Virus record (IMG/VR): IMGVR_UViG_3300040811_001425
Location: 1-24,536 of that record
Strand: one strand, 5' to 3'
Source: a virus
Length of the DNA stretch: 24,536 bases
Shown here piece by piece: positions 2,308-24,347 of the stretch. The notes under the pieces are model-generated. The model saw only the letters and a program-made list of their open reading frames with translations. It had not been told where the DNA came from and did not search any database. The translations under genes were made by a program, and so were the position numbers. Position 1 is the first letter of the stretch; the number at the start of each line of letters is the position of its first letter.

Positions 2308-4944
2308 ATGAGTTATGTAGACGCTTATTTTGATCGAGAAGCAGATAAGATATCTGTGGTCGAACGAATAAATGGTGAACGGAGATATGTGGAATACCCG
2401 GCTCGCTATGTGGCGTACTATGACGACCCCAAAGGCAAGTTTAAATCCGTGTATGGCACTCCGGTGTCACGCATTGCCACAAAATCAGGTAAGTTGTTTA
2501 AAAGGGAACTGGCTATGCAGTCAGGCAAGCGGATGTATGAGTCTGACATCAATCCTATATTTCGTTGCTTGGAAGAAAATTATCTAAACAAAGATGCACC
2601 AGAACTGCAAGTGGCGTTCTTTGACATCGAGGTAGATTTCGACCCTAATAAAGGTTATGCCAAGCCAGCAGATGCCTGGGCACCGATTATTTCTATCACA
2701 GTATATCTGCAATGGTTGGATCAATTGATATCATTGGCCATCCCTCCCAAAGATTTTCCCAATCCAGAAATCATCGAAAAAGAATTTGAAAATACAATGC
2801 TGTGTGAGTCAGAAGCGGATATGTTGAACAAGTTCATTGCACTCATAGAAGATGCTGATGTGCTGAGTGGGTGGAACTCGGAAGGTTTTGATATTCCCTA
2901 CACAGTGAACAGAATACAAAAGGTGATGTCAAAAGACGACACAAGACGTCTGTGCCTGTGGAATTCATATCCACGCAAAAGATTATTTGAAAGATTTGGC
3001 AACGAAGAAGTCACATACGACATCATTGGCAGGGTGCATTTAGACTATATGCAGTTGTATAGGAAATACACCTATGAAGAAAGGCACTCTTATGCTTTAG
3101 ACTTCATCTCCAAGATGGAGTTGGGGGAACAAAAGACTCCGTATGAAGGCACATTGGATCAATTGTACAACAAAGATTTTGTGAAGTTCATCGAATACAA
3201 CAGACAAGACGTGGCACTGTTGGGTAGATTGGATGAAAAACTAAAATTTATTGCACTATCCAACGAACTAGCACATCAAAACACTGTGTTGATACAAACA
3301 ACAATGGGTGCTGTGGCAGTTACAGAACAAGGCATCATCAATGAAGCACACAGGCGTGGCATGGTTGTGCCCGACAGGGTAAGACGTGAACCAGGATCAG
3401 ATCCTGCGGCAGGTGCCTATGTGGCGTATCCCAAGAAAGGATTGCACGACTGGATTGGATCTATTGACATCAACTCACTGTATCCTTCTGTGATTAGAGC
3501 ATTGAATATGGCCCCCGAAACTATCGTTGGTCAATTACGCCAAACACTCACAGAAGAAGAAATCGAACGCAGAATGACTATGGAAAAGAAATCGTTCGCT
3601 GGTGCTTGGGAAGGTGAATTTGGATCTATGGAGTATCAGGCTGTGATGCGTAAAGACAGAGCACAATCTATCACAATCGATTGGGAAACTGGAGAATCCA
3701 ACATTTTGAGTGCCGCAGAAGTTTATGAATTGATATTCAATTCAGATCAACCATGGATGTTATCCGCGAATGGCACAATATTCACTCACGAATTTGCTGG
3801 AGTAATTCCAGGACTGTTAGAACGTTGGTATGCAGAACGCCAAGAACTACAAGTCAAAAGGAAAAAGGCCATTGATGCAGGCAACAAAACAGAGATAGCA
3901 TTCTGGGACAAGCGACAATTGGTCAAAAAGATTAACTTGAATAGTTTGTATGGTGCAATTCTAAATCCTGGTTGCAGATTTTTTGACACACGCATAGGAC
4001 AATCAACCACGCTGACAGGCAGATGCATCACTAAACATATGGCCGCTAAGACCAATGAAATAATCTGTGGCGAATATGACTACAGAGGGCCATCCATAAT
4101 CTACGGTGACACAGATTCTGTTTATTTCTCAGCATATGAATCACTCAAGACAGAAATCGATGCAGGCAACATTCCATGGACGAAAGAATCTGTGGTGCAG
4201 TTGTATGACTCTGTAGCCGGAGAAGTCAACAAGTCTTTTCCAAAATATATGATAGACGCTTTCAACAGTCCGAGTAGTTATGGAAAATTGATAGCAGGTG
4301 GCAGAGAAGCAGTGGGATCAAAAGGATTGTTCATCACAAAGAAAAGATATGCAATGAAAATATATGATCTGGAGGGAGAACCTGTGGATAAAATCAAAGC
4401 AATGGGTCTTGACTTGAAACGTTCTGACACTCCTGCATATATTCAAGACTTCTTATCTGATGTATTAGACAAAGTATTGATGGGTATAGGCGAAGAAGAA
4501 GTTATGGAATTTATTGCTGACTTCCGTTTGGAATTCAAAAAAATGCCTGGCTGGGAAAAAGGTTCTCCAAGACGTGTAAACAAACTCACAGAATATCATT
4601 CTCGTGAAAAACGCAAAGGCAAGATCAATATGCCAGGACACGTGAGGGCGGCGATCAATTGGAACACTCTAAAAAAAGTCTACAACGACAGATATTCCAT
4701 GGACATCATCGATGGACAAAAATGTATTGTTTGCAAACTGCGTGACAATCCCATGGGATACACATCTATCGCATATCCAACAGATGAATTGAGAATTCCT
4801 GATTGGTTCAAGGAGTTACCATTCGCAGATGATGAAATGGAATCCACACTAATCAACAAAAAACTTGATAACCTAATTGGTGTACTGGATTGGAATCTTG
4901 GAAATTCCGAAGCAGAAAATACCTTTGACAAATTATTTGGTTAG
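2308..4944 (+). CDS. 43: Family B replicative DNA polymerase (T4 gp43-like)
   Basis: The 878-residue protein (T4 gp43 is 898) has an intact 3'-5' exonuclease and polymerase. Exonuclease motifs: FFDIEVDF with D106/E108 (Exo I), NSEGFDIPY with D195 (Exo II) and YNRQDVALL with Y297/D301 (Exo III). Polymerase motifs: DINSLYPSVIR with D387 (A), KKINLNSLYGAIL with K541 (B) and YGDTDSVYF with D601/D603 (C). All catalytic acids are present, so it should be an active proofreading replicase. The C-terminus ends NTFDKLFG, reminiscent of the short hydrophobic tail by which T4/RB69 polymerase contacts the clamp. The clamp gene follows directly; T4 places regA, 62 and 44 between them. No inteins or insertions are visible. 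The start ATG at 2308 has only a weak ribosome site. Confidence 0.97.
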   Translation: MSYVDAYFDREADKISVVERINGERRYVEYPARYVAYYDDPKGKFKSVYGTPVSRIATKSGKLFKRELAMQSGKRMYESDINPIFRCLEENYLNKDAPELQVAFFDIEVDFDPNKGYAKPADAWAPIISITVYLQWLDQLISLAIPPKDFPNPEIIEKEFENTMLCESEADMLNKFIALIEDADVLSGWNSEGFDIPYTVNRIQKVMSKDDTRRLCLWNSYPRKRLFERFGNEEVTYDIIGRVHLDYMQLYRKYTYEERHSYALDFISKMELGEQKTPYEGTLDQLYNKDFVKFIEYNRQDVALLGRLDEKLKFIALSNELAHQNTVLIQTTMGAVAVTEQGIINEAHRRGMVVPDRVRREPGSDPAAGAYVAYPKKGLHDWIGSIDINSLYPSVIRALNMAPETIVGQLRQTLTEEEIERRMTMEKKSFAGAWEGEFGSMEYQAVMRKDRAQSITIDWETGESNILSAAEVYELIFNSDQPWMLSANGTIFTHEFAGVIPGLLERWYAERQELQVKRKKAIDAGNKTEIAFWDKRQLVKKINLNSLYGAILNPGCRFFDTRIGQSTTLTGRCITKHMAAKTNEIICGEYDYRGPSIIYGDTDSVYFSAYESLKTEIDAGNIPWTKESVVQLYDSVAGEVNKSFPKYMIDAFNSPSSYGKLIAGGREAVGSKGLFITKKRYAMKIYDLEGEPVDKIKAMGLDLKRSDTPAYIQDFLSDVLDKVLMGIGEEEVMEFIADFRLEFKKMPGWEKGSPRRVNKLTEYHSREKRKGKINMPGHVRAAINWNTLKKVYNDRYSMDIIDGQKCIVCKLRDNPMGYTSIAYPTDELRIPDWFKELPFADDEMESTLINKKLDNLIGVLDWNLGNSEAENTFDKLFG

Positions 4945-5735: not shown

Positions 5736-6395
5736 ATGGAAACTTTGCCGTTAACTCAATCTTTTTTTATTGTATTCAGAGAAGGATTTGAAATTGCTTT
5801 AATCCTTTCACTGATATTCAATTATATCAAAAACTACAACAATGCCCTGTGCGAAAAGGGATCAGTTGCAGATACGAGAGCGAAAAAATATGTGTATCTC
5901 GGTATTGTGTTTGCAACCATTGTAAGTTTTATAATTGCTTGGGCATTCACAGAATACAGCAACACTTTGACACACGACCATGAAGAAATGTTTGAGGGCA
6001 TCACAATGATCATTGCTTCATTAATGTTATTCTATGTGGCTATATGGTGCCATGGAGCAAAACAACACGTGGAAGGTAAAGTTGACAAAGCAATCAGTCA
6101 AGGCGCGGCATTGGCATTGGCGTTCACTGTGTTTTTTGCAATCATCCGGGAAGGATTTGAAATTGTTTTATTTTATGCGGCCATACTTTCAGACAGCAAT
6201 GATCTAAATAGCATCTTAATGGGAGGATGGTTAGGACTAATCGTGTTAGGATTTGTGGTGTTTGCAATGAACAAGGCCATCATAAAAATGCCAATTGGGT
6301 TGTTTTTCAAGGCAAGTTCTGTTTTACTAATTGTGTTGGCCCTGTATTTTGGTTACAGTGGTATAGAGGAGATATTGGAAGTAATCAATGAGTAA
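5736..6395 (+). CDS. FTR1-family iron permease
   Basis: A 219-residue membrane protein with the two REGFE motifs that define the FTR1/EfeU family: R15-E19 in the first membrane segment and R138-E142 in the fourth. The glutamates and arginine bind ferric iron during transport in this family. Six hydrophobic segments are visible, at about residues 9-31, 52-74, 88-107, 123-151, 160-182 and 187-210. Bacterial EfeU is longer (~275) with seven segments, so this is a compact version. A His/Glu-rich loop (THDHEEMFEG, residues ~78-88) faces between segments 2 and 3. It starts one base after the clamp stop and overlaps dpdA by 8 bases, so it is embedded in the phage operon rather than a stray host fragment. 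It likely acts in the host inner membrane as an auxiliary metabolic gene; iron specificity is inferred. Confidence 0.88.
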   Translation: METLPLTQSFFIVFREGFEIALILSLIFNYIKNYNNALCEKGSVADTRAKKYVYLGIVFATIVSFIIAWAFTEYSNTLTHDHEEMFEGITMIIASLMLFYVAIWCHGAKQHVEGKVDKAISQGAALALAFTVFFAIIREGFEIVLFYAAILSDSNDLNSILMGGWLGLIVLGFVVFAMNKAIIKMPIGLFFKASSVLLIVLALYFGYSGIEEILEVINE

Positions 6396-7851
6396 CATAA
6401 ATCTAACTGAAACACAAAAAGATTATGCAATTTTTTTGCCAGCGGTCAGTGGATTCTATGCAACATTCATAGGCAAACAACAATCATCAGAGTATGTAGA
6501 AACTGCCCGTATCCCTTCGAACTTCAAACACGGTGTGGAGAGTCTAAACTTCCTTAATGACAAAGAAGGTCAATTCAAATACCGTTGGTGTTTGTATTCG
6601 GCAGGCCACGCTGACCTAGACGTAAACAGAGATTCGCCGAAGGAAGATATGTTTAGGAAAAGGAACAGATCAACATCTTGGTCACTGGGTGACTCGGGCG
6701 GATTCCAAATTGGTAAAGGCGTTTGGGAAGGTGATTGGAAAGATCCTAACTGTCCTAAAGCAAAAAAGAAACGTGAGCAGGTTCTTGCGTGGATGGATGC
6801 ATATATGGACTATGGTATGATCCTTGATATTCCGGCCTGGGTGGCACGTTCGCCCAAAGGACAAAAGGCTACAGGCATTTCCACTTACGAAGAAGCCTGT
6901 CAGGCCACCAACATCAACAATGAATATTTTATGAAGCATCGCTCAGGTGCCTGTAAGTTCTTAAATGTTTTACAGGGTGAAAATCACACCGAAGCAGATG
7001 ATTGGTATGAGAGAATGAAAAAATTCTGTGATCCCAAACAGTATCCGGACACACACTTCAATGGTTGGTCCATGGGTGGACAGAATATGTGTGATATACA
7101 CCTTGTGCTCAAAAGACTTGTTGCACTGAGATTTGATGGATTGCTAGAAAAAGGCGTTCACGATTTTATGCACTTCTTAGGAACGTCAAAACTTGAGTGG
7201 GCCACACTGCTCACAGACATACAGAGATCAGTGCGTAAGCATCATAATGAAAACTTTACGATCACATTCGACTGTGCATCTCCCTTCTTAGCAACTGCCA
7301 ATGGGCAAGTTTATTGCCAGGTAGAGACAGAAGACAGATCAAAATGGGTTTATAGAATGGTGCCTTCTATTGATGACAAAAAACTTGCAACAGACAATAC
7401 TCCATTTGCAGAGGCTTTTGTCAGAGAAGGTAAACACACATCATTTTTAGACTCTCCTATCACAGACGGCCTTAAAGCCAAAGATGTATGCATATATGCT
7501 CCTGGTGATTTGAACAAAATTGGCAAAGAAGGTAAAACATCTTGGGACTCATTCTCTTATGCGATACTGATGGGACACAATGTATGGACTCACATAAATG
7601 CAGTGCAAGAAGCAAATAGGCAGTATGACAATGGTCGTATTCCAAATATGTTGATTCAAGAATCATTTGACCGAGTAGCATTCAAAGACATAGTTGAGGC
7701 TATTTTTGCTACTGACGACAGAGATGTTGCAAACGCAGTAGTAGAAGAGTATTCTAAATATTGGATGAGTATAATCGGAACTAGAGGAGCAACTGGCAAA
7801 AAAACTGTAAATGCATCAACACAATTTAGCAACCTATTCGAGGAGGTATAA
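6388..7851 (+). CDS. dpdA: DpdA-like 7-deazaguanine transferase (TGT superfamily)
   Basis: The 487-residue protein has the tRNA-guanine transglycosylase signatures: DSGGFQ with D102, the base-binding and general-acid region, and FDCASP with D295, matching the FDCxxP nucleophile motif of TGT. NVLQGE and the MHFLGTSK region match further barrel elements, and a HNVWTHINA segment lies nearer the C-terminus. The zinc site CxCxxC...H found near the C-terminus of bacterial TGT is not seen. A phage TGT-like protein of this length, beside folE, queD and queE, is best read as DpdA, which exchanges guanine in DNA for a deazaguanine base. Action on tRNA cannot be excluded from sequence alone. Its ATG overlaps the iron permease by 8 bases, and the next gene follows the TAA directly behind AGGAGGT. 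Confidence 0.82.
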   Translation: MSNINLTETQKDYAIFLPAVSGFYATFIGKQQSSEYVETARIPSNFKHGVESLNFLNDKEGQFKYRWCLYSAGHADLDVNRDSPKEDMFRKRNRSTSWSLGDSGGFQIGKGVWEGDWKDPNCPKAKKKREQVLAWMDAYMDYGMILDIPAWVARSPKGQKATGISTYEEACQATNINNEYFMKHRSGACKFLNVLQGENHTEADDWYERMKKFCDPKQYPDTHFNGWSMGGQNMCDIHLVLKRLVALRFDGLLEKGVHDFMHFLGTSKLEWATLLTDIQRSVRKHHNENFTITFDCASPFLATANGQVYCQVETEDRSKWVYRMVPSIDDKKLATDNTPFAEAFVREGKHTSFLDSPITDGLKAKDVCIYAPGDLNKIGKEGKTSWDSFSYAILMGHNVWTHINAVQEANRQYDNGRIPNMLIQESFDRVAFKDIVEAIFATDDRDVANAVVEEYSKYWMSIIGTRGATGKKTVNASTQFSNLFEEV

Positions 7852-8100
7852 ATGGAAGACAAAGTGCTTGAGTTCAAACAAGAACTAAAGAAATTAAAAA
7901 AGAGAGTCAAACAAATGGAGGCTCAGAGAGAAAAAAATAGATCCTGGATCCACAAAGCAGAGTTATTGGAAATGAAAAAACAAAAACTCAAAATGAAAGA
8001 AATGCTGACACACATCGAAGAAAATACACTCAGCACTCCACTCAGTGAATATGAAGCAATCGAAAAATGGATGGAAGATAACAGTGATAACGATCAATAA
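7852..8100 (+). CDS. Small coiled-coil protein, 82 residues
   Basis: The product is a long charged helix. Residues 4-60 show heptad-like spacing of Leu, Met and Ile among Lys and Glu (VLEFKQELKKLKKRVKQMEA), then KAELLEMKKQKLKMKEMLTH, followed by an acidic tail ending DNSDNDQ. It has no Cys, signal or membrane segment. The ATG follows the dpdA stop with no gap and has the best ribosome site in this region, AGGAGGT at 7841-7847. Its stop overlaps the radical SAM start (TAATG), placing it between dpdA and that enzyme. It might be an accessory or oligomerisation partner of either neighbour, but nothing in the sequence proves this. Confidence 0.7.
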   Translation: MEDKVLEFKQELKKLKKRVKQMEAQREKNRSWIHKAELLEMKKQKLKMKEMLTHIEENTLSTPLSEYEAIEKWMEDNSDNDQ

Positions 8101-8756
8101 TGGATTGGCGCAGTTTCAAATCACAGATTAACTTTGGCCTAACCAGTTATTGTAACGCACTTTGTTCTATGTGCGAAAGAACCATACAAATAGATAATCT
8201 AAAGGTCACTCATAACTCCTTAGAAAAAATTAAACACAACATAGAACACAATGTTCCCGACCCTATCACAAAAATAAGCCTAGCAGGTGACTTTGGCGAT
8301 CCGTTGATGCATCCGGATATCAGCGAAATTATCGATTTTATCAAACAAAAAAATTTCGACATAGTCATTCACACAAATGGCGGATTGAGGAATGCTAGTT
8401 GGTTCAAGCAGATAGGAGAAAAACATCCAGATGTAGAAATTGTGTTTGGAATAGACGGCACAAGCCAAGAAATAAATGACAAGTATAGAAAAAACGTAGA
8501 TTTTGATCTCGCATTTAGCAATATGCTAGAATACCAAAAGTATGTTCAGAAAGACAAATGTGTTTGGCAATATATAATCTTTCCTTGGAATCTTCACCAA
8601 ATACAACAAGCAAAGAAGATTTGTGAAGGCAAAAACATCTATCTATACTTTATCGCTAATGACAGAGGCAGTGCCCATGATAGAATTTCTGTACAAATGT
8701 ACAAGAGATTATCACAATCTCTCACCATAGATCTAAAAGGTTCTGTCTACATATGA
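8100..8756 (+). CDS. Radical SAM enzyme, catalytic part (first half of a split SPASM protein)
   Basis: The 218-residue protein starts directly with a radical SAM core: C18NALC22SMC25 gives the CxxxCxxC 4Fe-4S site after a short strand. LAGDFGDPLMHPDI takes the place of the GGEP SAM-binding motif, and FGIDGTSQEINDKYR matches a later barrel motif. It ends after the barrel. The next gene, overlapping by ATGA, supplies a Cys-rich domain like the SPASM domain normally fused at this point in anaerobic sulfatase-maturase-type or peptide-modifying enzymes. The two products probably act as one complex. Substrate unknown; position after dpdA suggests a possible role in base hypermodification, while SPASM proteins more often modify peptides. 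Confidence 0.85.
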   Translation: MDWRSFKSQINFGLTSYCNALCSMCERTIQIDNLKVTHNSLEKIKHNIEHNVPDPITKISLAGDFGDPLMHPDISEIIDFIKQKNFDIVIHTNGGLRNASWFKQIGEKHPDVEIVFGIDGTSQEINDKYRKNVDFDLAFSNMLEYQKYVQKDKCVWQYIIFPWNLHQIQQAKKICEGKNIYLYFIANDRGSAHDRISVQMYKRLSQSLTIDLKGSVYI

Positions 8757-10271: not shown

Positions 10272-11332
10272 TTTATATTGTAGACATCGAAGCAGTCGAA
10301 ACAAGATACACAGCAGAGTGGAAGAAGTATCTGCCCAAGCAGATCGAAAAACACACAGGGCAAAAAGTGACTACTATATCAGGAGGAGATACACCACAAG
10401 CAACTACTCCTGGTGCATTTTTAAACTTTGGCGGAACAAATGTCTACAAATCCAAACAACTCGAACAGATCGCAACGATGTTCTGCGAAGGCAAAATCAA
10501 AGATGGCGATTATTTTTTGTACACAGATGCTTGGAATCCTACTGTAATACAACTCAAGTATATGGCAGAACTATTAAAGGTCAACATCAAAATAGGTGGT
10601 ATGTGGCACGCTGGTTCTTATGATCCTGCTGATTTCTTGGGTAGATTAATCGGAGATGCAAAATGGGTGAGAAATGCAGAAAGGTCTATGTTCGAAGTAT
10701 ATGATCACAATTTTTTTGCTACTAAATTCCATATCGATATGTTTAACAAAGCATTATATCCTGAAACTTCTATCATTGATAAAAAAATAAAACGCACTGG
10801 GTGGCCAATGGAATATATGGAAAATGAGTTGAGTATGTATGTAGGATTGCCTAAAAGAAATTTAATTTTATTTCCACACAGGATTGCTCCTGAAAAACAA
10901 CCTGAAATTTTCTATGATCTGAAAGAAGCACTTCCGCAGTATGAACTAGTGGTGTGTCAAGAACGCGAACTTAAGAAACACGAATATCATAATTTGTTAG
11001 CAGAAGCAAAATTAATATTTTCTGCGAACACGCAGGAAACACTAGGCATCTCAGGTTATGAAGGTATCGTCTTAGACACAATCGCAATGGTGCCCGATAG
11101 ATTAAGTTACAAGGAAATGTTTTTTGATGACTTCAAGTATCCAAGCGAATGGTCAGAGAACATAGAATCATATCGAAAAAATAAACAAAAATTAATCGAT
11201 AGAATCGTAGACTATATGGAAAATTATTCTAAATACCTTACAACAATCAATAAACAAAAAAAGCAATTGCAACACGATTATTTCCACGGATTTAACTTGT
11301 ATGAAGCAATAGCAGAAAGTATAATAGATTAA
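10268..11332 (+). CDS. GT-B-type glycosyltransferase-like protein
   Basis: The ATG at 10268 overlaps the previous stop (ATGA) and gives 354 residues starting MIYIVDIEAVETRY; an upstream GTG/TTG-type extension to 10184 would only read through the previous gene. The N-terminal half has GGTNVYKSKQLEQIA and DYFLYTDAWNPTVIQLKYMA, consistent with a first Rossmann domain. The second half has the layout of family 4-type glycosyltransferases: NLILFPHRIAPEKQPEIFYD (the hR..peK donor-phosphate motif), YELVVCQERELKKHEYHNLL, and LIFSANTQETLGISGYEG, with an ETLG acidic motif in the donor-sugar site. Relatives occur widely in T4-like cyanophages. Sugar donor and acceptor are unknown. Its place between queD and folE makes a modified DNA base a candidate acceptor. 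Confidence 0.75.
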   Translation: MIYIVDIEAVETRYTAEWKKYLPKQIEKHTGQKVTTISGGDTPQATTPGAFLNFGGTNVYKSKQLEQIATMFCEGKIKDGDYFLYTDAWNPTVIQLKYMAELLKVNIKIGGMWHAGSYDPADFLGRLIGDAKWVRNAERSMFEVYDHNFFATKFHIDMFNKALYPETSIIDKKIKRTGWPMEYMENELSMYVGLPKRNLILFPHRIAPEKQPEIFYDLKEALPQYELVVCQERELKKHEYHNLLAEAKLIFSANTQETLGISGYEGIVLDTIAMVPDRLSYKEMFFDDFKYPSEWSENIESYRKNKQKLIDRIVDYMENYSKYLTTINKQKKQLQHDYFHGFNLYEAIAESIID

Positions 11333-12018
11333 TGAGCATATCTAGTAAAATAAAACAAAGACTTGAACAGGAAGGTAAGCGATACTGGGCAGGCGATAAC
11401 ATTTCAGAATATATCTATGATGGCGAACACAAAGAACTGATAAGCGAACTCACTGATAAATTTAACACTGTGCTAGAATCACTGATCATCGACACTGAGA
11501 ATGATCCTAATTCACAAGACACCGGCAAAAGACTAGCAAAGATGTATGTCAACGAATTAATGAGCGGAAGATATTTCCCACGTCCCAATGCCACTGCCTT
11601 TCCGAATCACGTAGAAGGTGGTTATGAAGGTATGTTGGTTGTGCGGTCAGAACTCAAATCTGTATGTTCACATCATCATCAACCAGTCAATGGAGTGGCT
11701 TATATAGGAATAATTGCGGCGGACACACTGATTGGACTTTCTAAATACACAAGAATTGCTCAATGGTGTGCTAGACGTGGCACACTGCAAGAAGAACTGT
11801 GCAATGATATTGCAAGAGAGATAATGAATGCAACCGGTTCAAAGAATGTCGGAGTATACATCCAGGCCACACACGGCTGTTGTGAAAACAGAGGAATTCA
11901 AGCACACTCAAGCCTTACACAAACCACAGTACTGAAAGGTGCGTTTAACGATGATCCAGGAACTAAAAAAGAGTTCATGGATAATATTAAATTGCAACAA
12001 GAGTATGCCAAAAGATGA
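11332..12018 (+). CDS. folE: GTP cyclohydrolase I
   Basis: The 228-residue enzyme carries the FolE signatures. C112-S-H114-H115 with PVNGVAYIG matches the CxHH zinc motif, [20 protein letters not shown] then QEE matches the GLSKxxRI...R.QxQE stretch, and [10 protein letters not shown] with C183 supplies the third zinc ligand and catalytic region. It converts GTP to 7,8-dihydroneopterin triphosphate, the first step of folate and of 7-deazaguanine synthesis. With QueD and QueE in the window, deazaguanine supply is the likely purpose. It starts on the glycosyltransferase stop (TAATG) and overlaps guaC by ATGA. All key residues are intact and length is near that of E. coli FolE (222). Confidence 0.95.
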
Positions 12019-13052
12019 GAATAGAATCTGATAAAAAATTAGATTTCTCAGATGTCTTATTTAGGCCTAAACGATCACAACTCACTTCAAGGAAAAATGT
12101 CCAACTAGAAAGAGACTTTGATTTCAAACACTCCACACAAAAGTGGACAGGTATTCCGATCATTGCGGCAAATATGGATGGAGTTGGTACATTTACAATG
12201 GCCAAGGCATTACAAAAACACAATCTGCTCACTGCAATTAGGAAACACTACTCAGTGGATGATTGGCACGAAGCAGTCAAGACAGGACTAAAACTTAAGA
12301 ATGTAATGATATGCACAGGATCTGCTTATCAGTACAATCAGGAAGCACCAGATTATGATGTTATGAAAAAAGTTTTGGCGGCATATCCAGACATTCGTTG
12401 GATCTGTATCGATGTTGCCAATGGGTATCAACAGAACTTTGTGGACTTTGTCAAACGAGTCAGAGATGAATACCCGGACAAGATCATTGTGGCAGGCAAT
12501 GTGATCACAGCAGAAATGGTTGAAGAACTGATCATTGATGGGTGTGATGTTGTTAAATGTGGCATTGGTCCAGGATCAGTATGCACCACAAGATTGATGA
12601 CTGGTGTTGGTATGCCTCAACTGTCAGGTGTGATCGAATGTGCAGATGCGGCCCACGGAGTTGGTGGTCACATCATTGCAGATGGTGGTTGCACAGTGCC
12701 AGGTGATATTGCCAAGGCATTTGGTGGCGGTGCTGACTTTGTGATGTTGGGAGGTATGCTGGCAGGCACAGATGAGTCTGAAGCAACTGTTCAAGATGGT
12801 AAAGTAACATTCTATGGTATGAGTTCAGACAAAGCAATGGAAACACACGGTGGCAGGCACTCATATCGTGGCTCTGAAGGCAAAGTAGTATCTATCCCTT
12901 ACAAGGGTGCTGTAGAGACAGTTATCACGGATTATTTAGGTGGTTTAAGGTCTACTTGCACATACATAGGTGCCAAAAGATTAAAAGATATCCCCAAGTG
13001 TACCACATTCGTTCAAGTGAATAACCAGGTTAACAAAGTATATGGCAGTTAA
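12015..13052 (+). CDS. guaC: GMP reductase
   Basis: The 345-residue TIM-barrel protein belongs to the IMPDH/GMPR family. It lacks the CBS domains expected of IMP dehydrogenase and has the GMP reductase size. [20 protein letters not shown] carries the catalytic C190. [20 protein letters not shown] and [13 protein letters not shown] match the GMP-phosphate loop, and [12 protein letters not shown] is the flap with the conserved Glu. GuaC reduces GMP to IMP and ammonia with NADPH. In a phage it could move host guanine nucleotides toward adenine, which suits an AT-rich genome, or rebalance pools around the GTP-consuming FolE. It overlaps folE by ATGA. Its last codons NKVYGS lie in a 14-base repeat also found 154 bases downstream. 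Confidence 0.92.
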
Positions 13053-13200
13053 AATTATATATGATAAAAAAGATTGGCAGTCTTTAGCAGACTGTATAAG
13101 AAGTGATCAAGTCCCTGTGCAAGATTTAATTTTGATACTAGAACAAAATCCTAATTTTGCAAAATGGTACAAGAAAAAATATTTGGACAAAGTATATGGC
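13033..13200 (+). repeat. 14-base direct repeat flanking an inserted small gene
   Basis: ACAAAGTATATGGC occurs at 13033-13046 and 13187-13200. Each copy encodes the last residues of one protein (NKVYGS and DKVYGA) and the start codon of the next. Removing one copy plus the intervening 140 bases would join guaC directly to the phosphoribosyltransferase with both frames intact. Confidence 0.8.
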
Positions 13201-13206
13201 GCCTAA
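13042..13206 (+). CDS. Small protein, 54 residues, inserted between guaC and the phosphoribosyltransferase
   Basis: ATG at 13042 lies 11 bases inside guaC and the frame ends in TAA at 13204-13206, 11 bases inside the next gene. The product begins [20 protein letters not shown] and ends [12 protein letters not shown]. It is helical, with a central [20 protein letters not shown]. Patterns such as W...LA..I..D.VP and NP.F..WY resemble small hypothetical proteins of marine phages. The matching overlaps on both sides and the 14-base repeat indicate recent gain by recombination. Without this gene a ~140-base gap would remain inside a run of coupled genes. Function unknown. Confidence 0.65.
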
Positions 13207-13648
13207 TAAAACATACTACACCTGGAAACAGATAGAAAAAATGTCAGTGCATTTAGCAGACTTACTAGAATCTGGTAGAAATGTGCCAGACTACATCATA
13301 GGTGTTTCTAGGGGAGGATGTATTCCTGCAACAATCATTTCTCACAAGTTAAATGTACCAATGATACCAGTGCAAATATCAACAAGAGATCACGTCGAAC
13401 AATTGATTCCAGATTTTGCAGTTGGAAATGAAAGAGACCATTACAGGTTTTTGGTAGTGGATGACATCAATGACACTGGTCATACATTCAACAAACTTTC
13501 AAAAATATTAGAACATAGGGGGTGTCATTATTTGGAGTATGCTGTGCTGATAGACAACGAACCGTCTACATTCAATGTAGATTATTGGGCAGAAAAAATC
13601 AACAAAAAGAAAAAACCAACTTGGATAGTATATCCATGGGAAGTGTAG
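13196..13648 (+). CDS. Purine phosphoribosyltransferase (xanthine/hypoxanthine/guanine type)
   Basis: Starting at ATG 13196 the protein has 150 residues; a TTG at 13157 would extend it into the preceding small gene and is unlikely. VVDDINDTGHT (87-97) is the PRPP-binding motif of type I phosphoribosyltransferases, and YIIGVSRGGCIPATIISHKL (33-52) is the PPi-loop region. The C-terminal WIVYPWEV resembles the PWE ending of xanthine-guanine enzymes. It should join a 6-oxopurine to PRPP to give GMP, XMP or IMP; which base cannot be read from sequence. Position after guaC and folE points to guanine salvage, perhaps of guanine released by DpdA. Its TAG stop lies inside the -35 of the queE promoter. 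Confidence 0.85.
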   Translation: MAPNKTYYTWKQIEKMSVHLADLLESGRNVPDYIIGVSRGGCIPATIISHKLNVPMIPVQISTRDHVEQLIPDFAVGNERDHYRFLVVDDINDTGHTFNKLSKILEHRGCHYLEYAVLIDNEPSTFNVDYWAEKINKKKKPTWIVYPWEV

Positions 13649-13673
13649 ACAAATTCTAAATATGTGTTATAAT
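13646..13673 (+). promoter_or_regulatory. Sigma70-like promoter for queE, predicted leaderless
   Basis: TAGACA (13646-13651), 16 bases, TATAAT (13668-13673). The -35 includes the stop of the phosphoribosyltransferase. Only five bases separate the -10 from the queE ATG at 13679, so the predicted start falls within a base or two of the A of ATG. No usable ribosome site precedes the ATG. Confidence 0.7.
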
Positions 13674-13678
13674 TAGGT

Positions 13679-14575
13679 ATGGCTGACAAGAAATACTATT
13701 ATTCTGAAATATTTTACTCCATTCAAGGAGAAGGACATTATACTGGTGTGCCAACTACTTGGATAAGATATTTCCTTTGCAATCTTCAGTGTAATGGTTT
13801 TGGACAGATAAATCCAACTGATCCAACATCCTGGGAACTACCATTTGAAACATTTGACGTTTCCAAAGTAAAAAGAGTTGAAGATTTACCTGTGTGGGAC
13901 AAAGGTTGTGATTCATCATACACTTGGGCCAAGAAATACAAGCATCTAATGGGGCAGGAGACCCCATCAGTGTTGGCACAAAAACTGGTGGACATAATGA
14001 AAAATAAAGACAATCCAGATGGATTGTTCCTACATCCTGTAAGCAAACAACATCAACATCTGTGTTTCACGGGCGGCGAGCCATTGATGCCACAGAGTCA
14101 ACAGGCAACCATAGGCATATGGGAAGAACTGCAAAGGCAAAACAACTTACCTGGATCAATGACATTCGAAACCAATGGCACACAAAAACTAACTCCAGCA
14201 TTCAAGGATTGGGTGGATAGCCACAACACAGAAGTATTTTTTAGTTTGAGTCCCAAACTTTGGTCAGTGGCGGGCGAGAAGACAGAAAAAGCCATACGTC
14301 CTGACGTTGTGCAAGATTATTATGCACTGTCCAAAAAAGGACAGTTGAAATTTGTTGTGGGACACACAGAAGAACAATGGCAAGAACTTGATGACACTGT
14401 GAAAAAATTCAGAGATGCTGGCATTGACTATCCTGTGTGGATCATGCCTGTAGGTGCTAGAGAAGAAGAGCAATCTGCAACAGCAGGCGAAGTGGCAAGA
14501 AAGGCATTTCAAAAAGGATACAATGTGGCGGCTAGAGTTCACGTGTATCTGTTTGGCAACGCAATAGGAACATAA
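13679..14575 (+). CDS. queE: 7-carboxy-7-deazaguanine synthase with split Fe-S motif
   Basis: The 298-residue radical SAM enzyme begins, after nine residues, with EIFYSIQGEGHYTGVPTTWI, the QueE N-terminal signature, which fixes the start. C34NLQC38 gives the first two cluster ligands, but the third position is Phe (NGFG). After a ~38-residue insertion comes GC77DSSYTW, which corresponds to the WCDTxYTW ending of the normal CxxxCxxC motif. The cluster motif is therefore CX3CX38C. FTGGEPLMPQ is the SAM-binding GGEP, TFETNGTQ follows, and SLSPK matches a late motif. QueE rearranges 6-carboxytetrahydropterin to 7-carboxy-7-deazaguanine. The insertion resembles phage QueE variants I recall from T4-like marine phages. 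It lies behind its own promoter. Confidence 0.92.
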   Translation: MADKKYYYSEIFYSIQGEGHYTGVPTTWIRYFLCNLQCNGFGQINPTDPTSWELPFETFDVSKVKRVEDLPVWDKGCDSSYTWAKKYKHLMGQETPSVLAQKLVDIMKNKDNPDGLFLHPVSKQHQHLCFTGGEPLMPQSQQATIGIWEELQRQNNLPGSMTFETNGTQKLTPAFKDWVDSHNTEVFFSLSPKLWSVAGEKTEKAIRPDVVQDYYALSKKGQLKFVVGHTEEQWQELDDTVKKFRDAGIDYPVWIMPVGAREEEQSATAGEVARKAFQKGYNVAARVHVYLFGNAIGT

Positions 14576-18388: not shown

Positions 18389-18416
18389 TTGACACTATTT
18401 GTAATGGTTTTATAAT
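18389..18416 (+). promoter_or_regulatory. Sigma70-like promoter for the MoxR-VWA operon
   Basis: TTGACA (18389-18394), 16 bases, TATAAT (18411-18416), both hexamers perfect. Predicted start is about 18423, giving a ~21-base leader with AAGGAG (18430-18435) eight bases before the ATG at 18444. GTTTTATAATA is shared with the dsbA and clamp promoters. Confidence 0.85.
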
Positions 18417-18443: not shown

Positions 18444-19526
18444 ATGAGCAATAACACAACAGTAGATACAACTAGACAGATAGGCCCTAAACAGGCGATT
18501 ACTGCTCTGAAACATTGTATCAAATTACAAAGACCAGTGATGATGTGGGGTGCACCAGGTATTGGTAAATCTGATATCGTCAAACAGATTGGAGACGAAC
18601 AATCACGTGAAGTGATTGATATCAGATTACCATTGTGGGAACCCACAGATATTAAGGGTATTCCTTTTTACAATTCTAAGTCAAATGCGATGGAATGGGC
18701 ACCACCCATTGAACTACCATCAGATCCTAAATCCACTGCCATATTGTTTTTGGATGAAATCAATGCGGCACCTCCGGCTGTGCAGGCGGCGGCATATCAA
18801 CTTATCCTAAACAGGAAGGTTGGTGCTTACGATCTGCCTGAGGGTGTGTCAATTGTGGCGGCTGGTAACAGAGAAACAGACAGAGGTGTGACATTCAGAA
18901 TGCCTGCACCATTGTCGAACAGATTTGTTCACATCGAAATGAAAGTTGATTTTGAAGATTGGTTTGAATGGGCCACACTCAATAACATACACGCAGATGT
19001 GGTTGGTTACTGCACATTTGCAAAACAAGATTTGTATGACTTCGATCCTAGAGGTTCTTCTAAGGCATTTGCCACACCAAGAACTTGGAGTTTCGTGAGT
19101 CAATTACTAACAGAACACCTGCCGGACAACACGCTCACCGATCTAGTTGCAGGTGCGGTTGGGGAAGGCACAGCCATCAAATTTATGGCTCATCGTAAAA
19201 TTGCGGCTGACCTCCCCAACCCAACAGACATACTATCCGGCAAGATCAAGAAGATGCCTAAGGCAGTTGAAGTGTCAGGACAATATTCACTGGCAGTATC
19301 AATGTGTTATGAACTCAAAGAGAATGAAAAGCACAAGGACTTCGACAAAATGGCAGACTGCTTCTTAAACTTTATGATGGACAATTTCGACACAGAATTG
19401 ACTGTGATGGGTGCCAAGATTGCACTGTCCACATACAAACTACCAATGAAGCCAAGCAAGTTGAAGTCATTCAACAAATTCCATGAGAAGTTTGGCAAAT
19501 ATGTTGTAGCGAGTATGGAGTCTTAA
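18444..19526 (+). CDS. MoxR-type AAA+ ATPase
   Basis: The 360-residue protein has Walker A GAPGIGKS (36-43), Walker B ILFLDE (100-105) followed by INAAPPAVQAAAYQL, the sensor-1 region IVAAGNRETDRGVTFRMPAP, and the arginine-bearing LSNRF, all typical of the MoxR branch. These ATPases act as chaperones that insert cofactors or assemble partner proteins containing a VWA domain. The partner here is the next gene, starting on the last base of this stop (TAATG). Similar pairs occur in T4-like cyanophages, with unknown role. A strong promoter and ribosome site point to high, probably early or middle expression. The C-terminal ~120 residues form the expected helical lid. Confidence 0.92.
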   Translation: MSNNTTVDTTRQIGPKQAITALKHCIKLQRPVMMWGAPGIGKSDIVKQIGDEQSREVIDIRLPLWEPTDIKGIPFYNSKSNAMEWAPPIELPSDPKSTAILFLDEINAAPPAVQAAAYQLILNRKVGAYDLPEGVSIVAAGNRETDRGVTFRMPAPLSNRFVHIEMKVDFEDWFEWATLNNIHADVVGYCTFAKQDLYDFDPRGSSKAFATPRTWSFVSQLLTEHLPDNTLTDLVAGAVGEGTAIKFMAHRKIAADLPNPTDILSGKIKKMPKAVEVSGQYSLAVSMCYELKENEKHKDFDKMADCFLNFMMDNFDTELTVMGAKIALSTYKLPMKPSKLKSFNKFHEKFGKYVVASMES

Positions 19527-20707
19527 TGAGAACTGCTCAACAAGAGAAACTAGTAACAGCCAGAATTTCTTTATTGTTGAAGAAACCATTCTTCGGCAAT
19601 ATGGCCACTAGACTGGTGCTCGAAGAAAAACCAGAAATAGGCACTGCGGCCACTGATGGTAGACATCTTTGGTATGCTCCAGATTTCATTGATAAACTGA
19701 CTCCTAAGCAAACCGAGTTCCTACTTGCACACGAGGTACTCCACGTTGCCTTCGAACATATGTTAAGAAGAGGAGACAGAAATCCTCAAGGTTGGAATGT
19801 AGCCTGCGATTATGCTATCAACCAAATACTGGTAGATGAAGGAGTAGGCGAAACACCTACAGGAGAAAATGCGCCTCTATTAGATTCTCAGTACGCAGGA
19901 TTAAGTGCAGAACAAATTTTTGACAAACTTTCAGACTATCAAAAACAATTAAAAACTTTGGATGTACACATCGACTTAGACAAAGGTGAAATCAAAGTTC
20001 CTAACAAGGATGGCGGTACTACTTCACTTCCTATACCAAAACTAACTGATGCCGAAAAAAATGCACTCAAAGATGAAATTAAAAATTCTCTGCTACAATC
20101 AGCCAAGGCCACACAGGCAGGCGGTGCTGGTAATGTTCCAAAAGGTCTTGAAAGATTAATCACTGACATCACTGCTCCTAAATTGGACTGGAGATCAATG
20201 CTGAGGCAAACAATCAAAAGTCAAATCAAAAACAATTACTCTTGGATGAGACCTTCACGTAAGATGTATTCGACCAATGCTGTTTTACCAGGTCTTGATG
20301 TGCAAAACGAATTAGATATTTGTGTATCAATTGATACTTCGGGGTCTATATCTGATAAAATGTTGCAGGACTTTTTGGGTGAGATCAACGGCATTGCAGA
20401 AGAATTTGATGACTACAAGATCAAAATATGGTGTTTCGACACAGAAGTACACGCACCAGAAGACTTTGAATCTTGGGATGGCAAGACAATTACCAACTAC
20501 AAACCACAGGGATTTGGTGGCACAGATATCGGCGTAAACTGGAAATGGATGCAGGACAACGAAGTAAAACCACAATTGTTGGTTTGTTTTACAGATGGTG
20601 AAACTTGGGATCGTTGGGGTGATTCCGACTATTGCGATACATTATGGGTGATTCATACCAATGAAAGAGTAAAACCACCTTTTGGCCAGACCGTTTACTA
20701 TCAGTAG
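19526..20707 (+). CDS. VWA-like protein with putative metallopeptidase domain (DUF2201 type)
   Basis: The 393-residue protein has two domains. Residues ~10-110 form a putative metallopeptidase: H69EVLH73 is an HExxH motif in LLAHEVLHVAFEHMLRRGDR, followed by WNVACDYAINQIL, the usual third region. Residues ~265-390 form a VWA-like domain with the metal-site motif D270TSGS274, a later GFGGTDIG threonine and LVCFTDGETWD aspartate. A charged linker with Lys/Asp lies between. This arrangement matches the DUF2201 pair, whose members occur beside MoxR ATPases. The ATPase probably remodels this protein or its target. Its location in the cell is cytoplasmic, as no signal peptide is visible. A substrate for the protease is not known. 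Confidence 0.9.
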   Translation: MRTAQQEKLVTARISLLLKKPFFGNMATRLVLEEKPEIGTAATDGRHLWYAPDFIDKLTPKQTEFLLAHEVLHVAFEHMLRRGDRNPQGWNVACDYAINQILVDEGVGETPTGENAPLLDSQYAGLSAEQIFDKLSDYQKQLKTLDVHIDLDKGEIKVPNKDGGTTSLPIPKLTDAEKNALKDEIKNSLLQSAKATQAGGAGNVPKGLERLITDITAPKLDWRSMLRQTIKSQIKNNYSWMRPSRKMYSTNAVLPGLDVQNELDICVSIDTSGSISDKMLQDFLGEINGIAEEFDDYKIKIWCFDTEVHAPEDFESWDGKTITNYKPQGFGGTDIGVNWKWMQDNEVKPQLLVCFTDGETWDRWGDSDYCDTLWVIHTNERVKPPFGQTVYYQ

Positions 20708-20774: not shown

Positions 20775-21095
20775 ATGCCAGAAGATAAAAAACAAGAATC
20801 AGCAAAGATGGAGGCGCCGGCAACTGCACCAGCAGATGCTCCTGCAACATCAGAAGGTGGAACCTCACTCACTGTCGCTGATCTAAGAAACTTAAGAACT
20901 ATCATTGATGTTGCTTCATCACGTGGTGCCTTCAGAGGTGCTGAACTAAAAGGTGTTGGAGAAGCATTTGAAAAATTAGATAACTTTGTAAAAGCCATCG
21001 ATGCAAAAGCACAGGCAGAAACACAGGCCGCTACAGGCGAACAACCTGCACCTGCTGATGCCAAAGAGAGCGGAAACAAAGCAGACAAGAAATAA
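20775..21095 (+). CDS. Ala-rich phage protein with conserved core, 106 residues
   Basis: A strong AAGGAG site precedes the ATG. Residues 1-30 are Ala/Pro/Glu-rich and probably disordered; residues ~31-78 hold a helical core (SLTVADLRNLRTIIDVASSR, GAFRGAELKGVGEAFEKLDN, FVKAID); the rest is again Ala/Gln/Glu/Lys-rich. I recall the LTV.DL..L..IIDVAS.RGAF pattern from cyanophage hypothetical proteins. The composition suggests a small abundant scaffold- or decoration-type protein, but nothing demonstrates it. Two palindromes lie just upstream. The gene at 21105 follows after nine bases with AAGGA between. Confidence 0.75.
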   Translation: MPEDKKQESAKMEAPATAPADAPATSEGGTSLTVADLRNLRTIIDVASSRGAFRGAELKGVGEAFEKLDNFVKAIDAKAQAETQAATGEQPAPADAKESGNKADKK

Positions 21096-21104
21096 AGGAA
21101 CCAA

Positions 21105-21713
21105 ATGAAACACACAGGATTTCTAAAGAAAAGCAACGCCAAAGTTATTGTTGTGTACAAAACAATACCTAACGATTCTGCAAACTGTCTTGTGATAGAC
21201 AGAGATGCATTAAGACCTTTTGAAGCAGATCAAATTATCCCTGCTCTCGAATCAAAAGACGGTCAAGACGCATTTGATTTTGGCGACTTACTTGCAAGGA
21301 AAAAAATGCCTATTGATGCCATGGTTGATCAAGCAGGAGAAGAGGTCGGGCAATCTGTACAAGGAGTTACCGTATTAGCATATCTACATCAAAAAGGTAT
21401 GCTCATCAAACAGCCAACATATAATGTTGTGATGACTCCTGGAGCAAATGTTACGATTACTCTTGATGAATTAAACATGGAAATTGCAAACCAACGTGGC
21501 ACTAGTGTAAACGATCTAGCACTGAAGGATCCCACAAGACTGCCGGATGATTCGCAAGAAAAGACGGATGCACAAAATATGCTGTCACGAGCAGATAGAT
21601 TACAGGCACAGGTAGACGAACTCAAAGAGAGAGCATACAAACTTGACGAATCTTTAAGACCAAAAAAAGGTCGTCCAAAGAAAGCATCTACTAAAGAACA
21701 AGTAGAAGCATAA
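21105..21713 (+). CDS. Conserved T4-like marine phage protein with coiled coil and AT-hook-like tail
   Basis: The 202-residue product begins MKHTGFLKKSNAKVIVVYKT, a start I recall from cyanophage homologues. Residues ~10-105 have alternating strands and helices (ANCLVIDRDALRPFEADQII, GVTVLAYLHQKGMLIKQPTY). Residues ~110-140 include ITLDELNMEIANQRGTSVND. A coiled coil (ADRLQAQVDELKERAYKLDE) follows, and the tail has KKGRPKKAS, an AT-hook-like GRP core suited to minor-groove binding of AT-rich DNA. The overall role is unknown; DNA association is inferred from the tail. AAGGA lies just before the ATG. The omega-like gene follows after three bases. Confidence 0.75.
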   Translation: MKHTGFLKKSNAKVIVVYKTIPNDSANCLVIDRDALRPFEADQIIPALESKDGQDAFDFGDLLARKKMPIDAMVDQAGEEVGQSVQGVTVLAYLHQKGMLIKQPTYNVVMTPGANVTITLDELNMEIANQRGTSVNDLALKDPTRLPDDSQEKTDAQNMLSRADRLQAQVDELKERAYKLDESLRPKKGRPKKASTKEQVEA

Positions 21714-21716
21714 GGT

Positions 21717-22013
21717 ATGGCTAGAGTTTTCGCTCAGGACGTGCTTAAGGCGTGTCAGGAACAAGGTATCGATTCCAAATATGAAATGATTATGTTGGCG
21801 GCGTACCGTGCCAAAAAACTTAGGAAGATGCCAATCAAAGAAAGAGTGCTACCGGACGATGAATATAATGAACCATCTGTCGGAGTGATAGCAATGAGAG
21901 AAATCGAATCAGGTCAGATCGATCTACATTCTCTAAAAGAAGAGGCTATCAAATCAAAATGTCAGGTATCAGAAAAAGATCTAGATATCGACGAAGAAAA
22001 TCAAGATCAGTAA
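21717..22013 (+). CDS. rpoZ: RNA polymerase omega subunit-like protein
   Basis: The 98-residue protein matches bacterial omega in order and spacing. MARVFAQD resembles the MARVTVED start of alphaproteobacterial RpoZ. K21YEMIMLAAYRAKKL corresponds to RFELVLLAAxRARxI, the helix that embraces the beta' C-terminus. VGVIAMREIESGQID (56-69) corresponds to PVVALREIAEGxIxxxxL, followed by LKEEAIKS. An acidic tail completes it. Omega helps fold beta' and in some bacteria binds ppGpp. A phage copy could replace host omega or bring a phage factor to the enzyme. It begins three bases after the previous stop with no good ribosome site, so coupling is likely, and ends at a strong terminator. I judge it a phage gene from its setting rather than host contamination. 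Confidence 0.78.
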   Translation: MARVFAQDVLKACQEQGIDSKYEMIMLAAYRAKKLRKMPIKERVLPDDEYNEPSVGVIAMREIESGQIDLHSLKEEAIKSKCQVSEKDLDIDEENQDQ

Positions 22014-22014
22014 A

Positions 22015-23154
22015 TTATTGAACAGGGTATAACGGAACGTTGTGCCCTGTTTTTCTTTTTGGAATTTTAGAATCAGCAGAACTCACACAACTTTGAGTGA
22101 TACAAGGTTGCGGTGCATCAAACAGTTTGAATCCTGTTTCAATGTTACCCAACGGCACATCAGCACAAGAATATGATCGTTTTACAGATCCATCAGGTTC
22201 CCTTATTATGATCGATCTATATCCGGAACTACATTCCCAACCTTTGAATTGATTGAAATTGAAAGCATTGAATCTTTCTGCTTGGTCCATATACCATTTC
22301 TTACCTTTGGAGTCTTGGAACTCAACCTGGAAATGCTGTGGCACAGTTTTTTGTTCTACGATTTGACTTTCGCTGAGTAAAGGAAACTTGGGTTTAGGTC
22401 TTTCGACATATTTGTTTTTGATCTCTGTGAATGCCCGCTGTGGCATTCCGTTGTACAATTTCTGTTTCATCTCATCTGTGTAACCATTCACTATCTTAGA
22501 TGCTGTTGGATCTGATTGAGGTTTTAGTGTGACATTGATGCCTTGGTTGTGGAAGAATAAAGCATTTTCATAATAGGTATCAAATGATTCAGGAACCATA
22601 ACCATATTAATGGTCACCTGTACATCGTGTTCCTGGCAGAAAATAAGTTTATCCGCAAACTCCTGCATCTTAGTTGGCGTATTCACGTGTTCTACGTGTA
22701 GACTTGCGGTTATACTTGCTCGATGGAACTTTGATGCGTGACTAACATACGTTTCAAACCATTTCATTGGTCTAGAACAATTGGAAGTCATATGCACAGA
22801 TGTATAATTGGTGTTAGGCACATCGTCGGCAAGATGTTGCATAATATCAAGATACCCCGGATGGAATGTGGGTTCACCGCCACTCAAACTAAAATGAAAT
22901 GAATTAAATGATCTTTCTCTGGCTTGCCTTTTGATTTCATCTATCGTTTTTAAACACAGTTTAGTTGGTCGATGATCTTTTGTGTTGGATCTTGCATATG
23001 GCCAACAATAACTGCAACGATAGTTACAAAACCTACCAAGCAACCAACTAACACTAAAGATATCTCTGTATAAAAGAGTTCTTTGACCCACGCTGACCAA
23101 ATCGTCGAATGGGATTGCACTGAAGTCATATTGTGAAGTTTTTAGATCGCTCAT
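22015..23154 (-). CDS. Radical SAM protein with Cys-rich C-terminal domain
   Basis: Starting at ATG 23154, within an ATGA overlap with the upstream minus-strand gene, the protein has 379 residues; a TTG two codons earlier is unlikely. C43NYRC47SYC50 is the radical SAM cluster motif, SLSGGEPTFHPGYLDIM the SAM-binding GGEP, and HMTSNCSRP and ITASLHVEH later barrel motifs. The C-terminal part, KGWECSSGYRSIIIREPDGS then YSCADVPLGNI and CITQSCVSS, has four or more Cys like a SPASM or twitch domain for extra clusters. Substrate unknown. Its final codons are shared with the plus-strand omega terminator, the two genes being separated by a single base. Confidence 0.88.
   Translation of the reverse strand: MSDLKTSQYDFSAIPFDDLVSVGQRTLLYRDIFSVSWLLGRFCNYRCSYCWPYARSNTKDHRPTKLCLKTIDEIKRQARERSFNSFHFSLSGGEPTFHPGYLDIMQHLADDVPNTNYTSVHMTSNCSRPMKWFETYVSHASKFHRASITASLHVEHVNTPTKMQEFADKLIFCQEHDVQVTINMVMVPESFDTYYENALFFHNQGINVTLKPQSDPTASKIVNGYTDEMKQKLYNGMPQRAFTEIKNKYVERPKPKFPLLSESQIVEQKTVPQHFQVEFQDSKGKKWYMDQAERFNAFNFNQFKGWECSSGYRSIIIREPDGSVKRSYSCADVPLGNIETGFKLFDAPQPCITQSCVSSADSKIPKRKTGHNVPLYPVQ
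22021..22060 (+). terminator. Strong rho-independent terminator after rpoZ, inside the convergent gene
   Basis: AACAGGGTATAACG (22021-22034) pairs through all 14 positions, including two G-T pairs, with CGTTGTGCCCTGTT (22038-22051) around a GAA loop; TTTTCTTTTT follows. It ends plus-strand transcription eight bases after the omega-like stop. The hairpin sequence also encodes the last residues of the minus-strand radical SAM protein. Confidence 0.9.
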
Positions 23155-24347
23155 TGCCAATAATCCTTAAACGCTGGGACTACTTCTAATATATTTTCGT
23201 TTCTGGATTTGTCCAGTGTATTTGTATATGCCATAAATTCTTTCCAATGTTTTTGATGCCAATCTTCGCTGTTCATATAGTCTATCATCTGTTTTACTTT
23301 TGGTCTATCCATATATGGAGCAAGTTTGTTTTCCACTTGATGTTTGATTTCACTAGGCAATACTTTGATGTTGAGACACTTAGGATGATTCAATATGTTA
23401 AGATAGACATCGCTGAACTCAATCGAATCGGCCCATTTGTATAATTTGTCTAGATCTAAAATATTGTATGTCTGTATAGTGGAATGTATCTGTAATCTCA
23501 CATTGTCCAACTCTCTTAATTTTTTAAAGTTTTCTTCTATCTTCGACCAGGCTGATGGGTATCTCACATATCTGTCTAACTCTCCTACCGCATCTATGGA
23601 AGCATTGATCTTGATTGTTTTAAATTTTTTCCAATGCGTCAGCATTTCGTCTGGAATGTTGGTTAAGTTTGTGTTGTATTTCAATCTAATTTTTTTACTT
23701 AGATTGTTGCTGTGTAGATATTCAAACAAATCATATTGCTTCACAGCAAGAGTGGGTTCTCCTCCAGTGAGATAAATTTCTTCTATGCTGTCGGCTATCT
23801 TTGCAACATTGTCCCAAACCTTTTGATTTTCAAACCAATCCATCTTAGATAATCTTTCCGTTTCTGATTGGTCTAGTTTTTCGTTTGGCACTAGTTCCGC
23901 TGTTTCAACAACATCGTTCCATTCTTTGATCCATTGAGAACTGGCATAGGGATTGCACATCCTACATTTTAGGTTACACAGATTACCTAATCTTAGATCG
24001 ATGTATCTGATATCCATTTTTGACTGTACAATGCTCGTGTCTACATTATCTCTGTACCAACCCTCATTGAAACTTTGCCTAGATGATTTGACTCCGGCAT
24101 CCTCTTCTGAAAAACATCTCTGGCAAATTTCCGGCCTTTCGTTGTTCAACAGTTGTTTCCTGATTGTTTGATAAAATTCACTGTTCCACACATCTTCTAT
24201 ATCGTGTCTTGCAAGATTCATGGATTTGCCTTGCTCATCTAATATTTGGTTTTTTCCGGGTGTAGAGTTGCAACAGATTCGGTAATTACCACTGGCGTTT
24301 GTTGCCAAATGCATAAAGGGTAACACACAAAAAGTCTTTGAATTCAT
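23151..24347 (-). CDS. Twitch-domain radical SAM protein
   Basis: The 398-residue protein has an N-terminal Cys-rich domain before the barrel: C7VLPFMHLATNASGNYRIC25C26, then EIC75QRC78. This resembles the twitch/SPASM cluster site but is moved to the front. The radical SAM core follows with C124NLKC128RMC131, IYLTGGEPTLAVKQYDLFE and INASIDAVGELDRYVRYP. Proteins with this order are found in marine T4-like phages, where they are annotated only as twitch-domain radical SAM proteins. It overlaps the second radical SAM gene by ATGA, so both are made together. The start ATG at 24347 follows an AT-rich leader without a clear ribosome site. The target is unknown; peptide or protein modification is typical of such domains. 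Confidence 0.88.
   Translation of the reverse strand: MNSKTFCVLPFMHLATNASGNYRICCNSTPGKNQILDEQGKSMNLARHDIEDVWNSEFYQTIRKQLLNNERPEICQRCFSEEDAGVKSSRQSFNEGWYRDNVDTSIVQSKMDIRYIDLRLGNLCNLKCRMCNPYASSQWIKEWNDVVETAELVPNEKLDQSETERLSKMDWFENQKVWDNVAKIADSIEEIYLTGGEPTLAVKQYDLFEYLHSNNLSKKIRLKYNTNLTNIPDEMLTHWKKFKTIKINASIDAVGELDRYVRYPSAWSKIEENFKKLRELDNVRLQIHSTIQTYNILDLDKLYKWADSIEFSDVYLNILNHPKCLNIKVLPSEIKHQVENKLAPYMDRPKVKQMIDYMNSEDWHQKHWKEFMAYTNTLDKSRNENILEVVPAFKDYWQ

Follow-up and report, generated by a model that had tools for sequence, protein, structure and literature searches.

An omega gene in a jumbo phage operon

The viral DNA analysed here (the window, 24,536 nucleotides) is a fragment from IMG/VR and not a complete genome. 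Its plus strand carries an operon that begins with a gene for a MoxR-type AAA ATPase (18444..19526; PF07726, E 2e-8; phrog_1297, E 1.5e-101), followed by a DUF2201 metallopeptidase-like/VWA gene (19526..20707; PF13203, E 2e-50; PF09967, E 1e-18), a gene for a protein of about 100 residues (20775..21095; phrog_13789, E 4e-9) and one for a protein of about 200 residues (21105..21713; phrog_15894, E 6e-18), the latter conserved among jumbo phages and present in 82 named phage records. Three bases separate its stop from the start of the gene of interest (21717..22013, plus strand, ATG to TAA), which codes for a 98-residue protein of the RpoZ family, the omega subunit of RNA polymerase, beginning with MARVFAQDVLKACQEQGIDSKYEMIMLAAYRAKKLRKMPIKERVLPDDEYNEPSVGVIAMREIESGQIDLHSLKEEAIKSKC.

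Candidate expression signals frame this arrangement. A perfect sigma-70-type consensus, TTGACA-16-TATAAT (18389..18416, plus strand, 12 of 12 matches), stands 28 bases ahead of the AAA ATPase gene; 120-base stretches taken at random from the window mostly reach 7-9 of 12. In related loci a promoter with 10-12 of the 12 matches precedes the same gene at an almost constant distance; it is kept across dozens of jumbo-phage contigs (loci L001-L076). After omega, a hairpin resembling an intrinsic terminator (22020..22052, plus strand, 15 pairs and then a T run) overlaps the end of a convergent radical-SAM gene, and in L001, where the nearest relative of the window omega lies, the stem is retained via paired changes (ACAGGG/CCCTGT to GTAGGG/CCCTAC). 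Since the consensus promoter is conserved, early transcription by the unmodified host polymerase is likely, and it is a natural inference that the operon would be transcribed as one unit by the unmodified host sigma-70-type holoenzyme, hence early. No T4-type late promoter (TATAAATA) was found within the window, and a search for sigma-70 region 2 (PF04542) that included two complete relatives returned no match.

The operon neighbours of omega in the window are jumbo-phage genes. For the B-family DNA polymerase of the window, the closest counterparts are in two jumbo phages with alphaproteobacterial hosts, Sinorhizobium phage Phosso (49%) and Agrobacterium phage Atu_ph07 (45%); judged by its genes, the carrier is a relative of these jumbo phages rather than T4 itself. 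Elsewhere in the window, a nucleotide cluster (11332-14575) codes for GTP cyclohydrolase I (PF01227), a member of the IMPDH/GMP-reductase family (PF00478) and a phosphoribosyltransferase (PF00156), together with a frame that has the appearance of a QueE-like radical-SAM protein. Further radical-SAM proteins are encoded at 8100-8756, 22015-23160 and 23151-24347, one of them with a SPASM domain, the last two genes being convergent with the omega operon. The phage also carries an FTR1-family iron permease gene (5736-6395; PF03239, E 4e-30) and, at 6388-7851, a frame of 487 residues with no Pfam match. Scans of the window for tRNA and Rfam families gave no matches.

Membership of the omega family

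The original prediction took the product for RpoZ from its start through a conserved helix and the stretch that follows. These features fall where they should: MARV occupies residues 1-4, the helix MLAAYRAKKL residues 26-35 and VIAMREIESG residues 57-66. The profile search that had been suggested as a check bears this out, with both curated cut-offs exceeded: 34.2 bits against Pfam RNA_pol_Rpb6 (PF01192, E 2.5e-8, gathering cut-off 26 bits) and 28.8 bits against NCBIfam rpoZ (TIGR00690, E 9.5e-7, equivalog cut-off 23.6 bits). In a phmmer search the top 22 PDB matches of the protein are omega subunits (best E 1.3e-4). A profile made of eight phage members only had omega chains as its sole significant matches in the PDB, the best being Caulobacter omega (7ye1_E, E 3.8e-11), aligned across profile positions 1-91 with the C-terminal helix included, and E. 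coli omega the next (1.7e-10). Seven members of an eight-member phage-omega set matched PF01192 (with E up to 1), and two proteins of the lineage described below lie under the TIGR00690 cut-off (L172 with 21.0 bits, L171 without a score). The PHROG search matched no family to the window omega. At the level of sequence, these comparisons confirm a genuine member of the RpoZ/RPB6 family. The frame is moreover under purifying selection, being constrained like the neighbouring genes: relative to its nearest relative, in L001, dN is 0.15 and dS is near saturation, for a dN/dS of about 0.07.

An AlphaFold model (pLDDT 82) predicts the helical fold of omega. Its five top PDB matches in Foldseek are omega chains, with probabilities of 0.97, 0.93, 0.96, 0.60 and 0.30 and with weak E-values, the best being 0.27.

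Two phage lineages

A survey of related phages had been proposed, and it found the same gene in the same operon in nine further IMG/VR contigs (L001, L015/L171, L021/L172, L173, L174, L175/L258, L176, L259 and L260), ten with the window, and a second set of omegas in 13 contigs. In the former, lineage A, the proteins are about 35% to 75% identical to the window copy, and wherever the contig reaches far enough the gene order is AAA ATPase, DUF2201/VWA, the 100-residue and 200-residue proteins, and omega last. That the gene is phage-encoded, as first claimed, is upheld by the phage genes that flank it in all ten contigs. In sister jumbo phages the first four operon genes are retained, and other genes occupy the omega slot. 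The gene for the 200-residue protein is held by 37 related-phage loci, where the next gene, when it could be read, codes for thymidylate synthase, a DHFR-like protein, an epimerase or another frame, and in complete named jumbo phages the slot is usually filled by an unrelated protein with an ERxRQ...NDW signature. The slot genes of GAP32, RaK2, Munch, XaC1, Atu_ph07, Phosso and Vibrio 2.275, considered as hidden omegas, mostly belong to this ERxRQ...NDW family and none is omega by sequence; that of PA5oct is another small protein, again not omega by sequence. The phage-omega profile had no match anywhere in seven complete named genomes. Because related jumbo phages lack omega in the slot, the gene would be a gain of the lineage-A clade, or a gene locally retained in it.

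Lineage B (L268-L279 and L282), the more divergent of the two, was found by a scan with mixed omega sequences, the first copy met being that of L177 (31.5 bits against TIGR00690). Its members score 29-52 bits with this model, above the cut-off; their profile recovers PDB omegas with an E-value of 6.5e-21, and the predicted structure has omega chains as top matches (probability 1.0, best E 3e-4). Five of nine distinct members start with MARVF, as in lineage A. Both lineages are on phage contigs, but lineage B forms a separate clade, and its gene cluster is another one, with phage dnaK and tail genes close by: most of its omegas are placed between a gene for a protein of about 210 residues, often after phage dnaK, and one of about 195 residues, followed by tail-fibre-like genes. 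One lineage-B contig, 3300007609_001168, also has an AAA ATPase 68% identical to that of the window, so that the phage backgrounds of the two lineages overlap. On the 155-kb lineage-B contig L268, the surroundings of omega include a succinate-dehydrogenase-type iron-sulfur protein (3079-4632; PF13085, PF13534) and a cytochrome-c-like frame with CAACHG. Brevundimonas jumbo phages have one lineage-B neighbour gene in common and no omega. By sequence, then, omega genes occur in at least two phage lineages, and the existence of the second argues for omega use in phages.

Several other records were set aside. Acinetobacter phage MD-2021a (CAKLQH020000003.1, L265) shows the order gmk-rpoZ-spoT and is therefore bacterial sequence; MT839270.1 (L266) and Campylobacter phage A11a (MG065691.1, L267) are unverified, unannotated records with a host-like rpoZ; L262 and L263 appear to be bacterial. 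Marine virus AG-345-E08 has no omega within the 12.5 kb examined. The best viral structural match, by comparison of predicted models, is UniProt A0A6J7WH19 from BFVD (probability 0.98), a protein of 72 residues from an uncultured Caudovirales phage, hence shorter than the window omega and from a different phage. It was automatically named 'DNA-directed RNA polymerase', so that annotation pipelines have already met isolated copies; no account of its context or function was found.

Conserved and altered residues

Phage omega resembles alphaproteobacterial RpoZ in length, helical order, MARV start, A-x-R-A helix and V-x-A-(L/M)-R-(E/D) motif, and shares with it (Caulobacter 7ye1_E, for example) the C-terminal helix LK-x-x-(L/I)-I-x-S-x-Q. 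It differs from its cellular counterparts in not lying beside gmk or spoT, in sharing no more than about 40% identity with any cellular omega found, and in a set of consistent changes. In E. coli numbering, nine lineage-A proteins compared with 52 alphaproteobacterial and 23 gammaproteobacterial omegas all retain M1, R3, V4, A27, V48 and R52, and eight of the nine retain A2. By contrast, residue 5 is F, not T, in all nine. The Asn43-Asp44-Lys45 loop, a conserved omega trait that stands outside the published family definition, is common to the 75 proteobacterial omegas and missing from the window protein; Asp44 and Lys45, present in 100% of both cellular panels, are also absent from most other lineage-A members. 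Lineage-A omegas also have 5 residues inserted after helix 1, ahead of the next helix. With Thr5 and Asp44-Lys45 changed and this insert present, the contacts made by phage omega may differ from those of the cellular subunit. Site 1 for ppGpp uses omega residues 2-5 (PMC7676912), so that lineage A keeps three of the four omega residues of the site.

The assignment to an alphaproteobacterial type, part of the original prediction, stands with a qualification. It agrees with the rank of Caulobacter omega among PDB matches, with full-length profiles, where the alphaproteobacterial one outscores the gammaproteobacterial one in all nine lineage-A members, and with the full-length tree, which groups lineage A with a support of 96 and nests it, by a long stem, among the alphaproteobacterial omegas, Pelagibacter not being its sister. 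The core domain by itself does not discriminate, the alphaproteobacterial profile being ahead in four members and the gammaproteobacterial one in five. As the core scores about equally with both, the signal comes mainly from the C-terminal helix; on balance, the alphaproteobacterial type is the better reading, resting largely on that helix. Trees of the core domain recover clade A (support 100/98) and clade B (97/90), and the p-AU of 0.40 for a single phage-omega clade uniting them neither establishes nor rejects it, all these omega trees having 65-100 columns and long branches.

What might a phage do with omega?

Nucleocytoplasmic large DNA viruses encode RPB6 homologues, members of the omega/RPB6 family, within a whole multisubunit polymerase, whereas the omega-bearing fragments of the window phage and its relatives are without beta and beta'. 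Searched for beta (PF00562) and beta' (PF04997), 11 omega-bearing records, all of them fragments, gave no match, while 14 of 14 control genomes matched; nor was PF00562 matched in the lineage-B records, likewise fragments. This absence makes the host RNA polymerase the likely partner, a point that is suggestive only. Phage omega would then be made early in infection, bind host beta' and enter the host core enzyme alongside or instead of host omega, and the altered polymerase would favour phage transcription, the simplest reason being a different docking surface on the phage subunit or a shift in sigma or promoter preference. We lean, with some reserve, towards such an exchange or addition of omega in the host core as the most likely role. 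We advance more tentatively, and as somewhat short of probable, the bolder proposal that in two or more lineages of large phages a dedicated omega replaces the host subunit and redirects core RNA polymerase to phage promoters or activators. Replacement with an effect on promoter choice or on the ppGpp response, as originally put forward, is plausible; it would require competition, since host omega should already be present.

Precedents suggest by analogy that omega can be a target of phage-like regulators. GafA activates RcGTA in Rhodobacter capsulatus by directly contacting host omega, by which it recruits the polymerase (PMC9638019), a chimera of lambda-cI and omega activates transcription (reviewed in PMC7700224), and in E. 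coli the lack of omega in RNA polymerase alters how the enzyme is distributed over prophage genes (PMC5811629). The GafA/RcGTA case is close in that a phage-derived system in an alphaproteobacterium depends on omega for its transcription (PMC9638019); there, however, omega belongs to the host, and it is the activator that is phage-like.

Other readings have to be weighed against omega exchange. Phage omega might simply act as host omega does, assisting the folding and stability of beta' and the core under high transcription demand with specificity unchanged. The family-wide role of omega is the folding and stabilisation of beta' (PMC7700224, PMC9973325), two pelagiphage infections upregulate host rpoZ (PMC12753301), and the core helix residues are conserved in phage omegas; yet lineage A has a long stem branch and, in place of a host-like sequence, consistent derived changes (T5F, NDK loss, the 5-residue insert), and we regard a pure dosage role as rather unlikely. 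A subunit used to shut off the host, as a competitor or poison of its polymerase, has a model in the dominant-lethal omega mutants of E. coli, which bind the core more tightly and are defective in initiation (PMC7700224), and the operon promoter suggests early expression. With no phage beta or beta' found, however, poisoning the sole polymerase would harm the phage itself unless the effect were selective, which makes this reading distinctly unlikely.

Alternatively, the omega fold may have been put to a use unconnected with RNA polymerase, such as partnering the AAA and VWA proteins. Its constant position as last gene of their operon in lineage A and its derived sequence features would fit, but many jumbo phages have the first four genes of this operon and no omega, lineage B keeps its omega in another cluster, and the residues typical of the RNA polymerase family are retained; we hold this for improbable. 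As for host DNA or a chance match, host rpoZ among host neighbours is indeed present in several records labelled as phage. Here, however, phage genes surround omega in ten contigs, which rules out contamination by synteny, and the clade is distinct from all compared cellular omegas; shuffled versions of the window protein reach at best 4-10 bits in 200 trials with cellular omega profiles, far below the 37-46 bits of the real one, so that the probability left to such an artefact is negligible.

The omega family is known; in the open-access literature searched, no published description of a phage-encoded omega was found, and both the phage carrier and its probable use are undescribed there. Phages are known to control host RNA polymerase through sigma-like factors, anti-sigma factors, small inhibitors and covalent modification. 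A core subunit borne by the phage would, if true, follow a different route, and omega exchange would be a strategy undescribed among the known phage modifications of host polymerase. The operon, its promoter, the relatives and the conserved changes make the idea testable in laboratory alphaproteobacteria, and phage omega would be a natural probe of the role, long unclear, that omega has in specificity, assembly and the ppGpp response.
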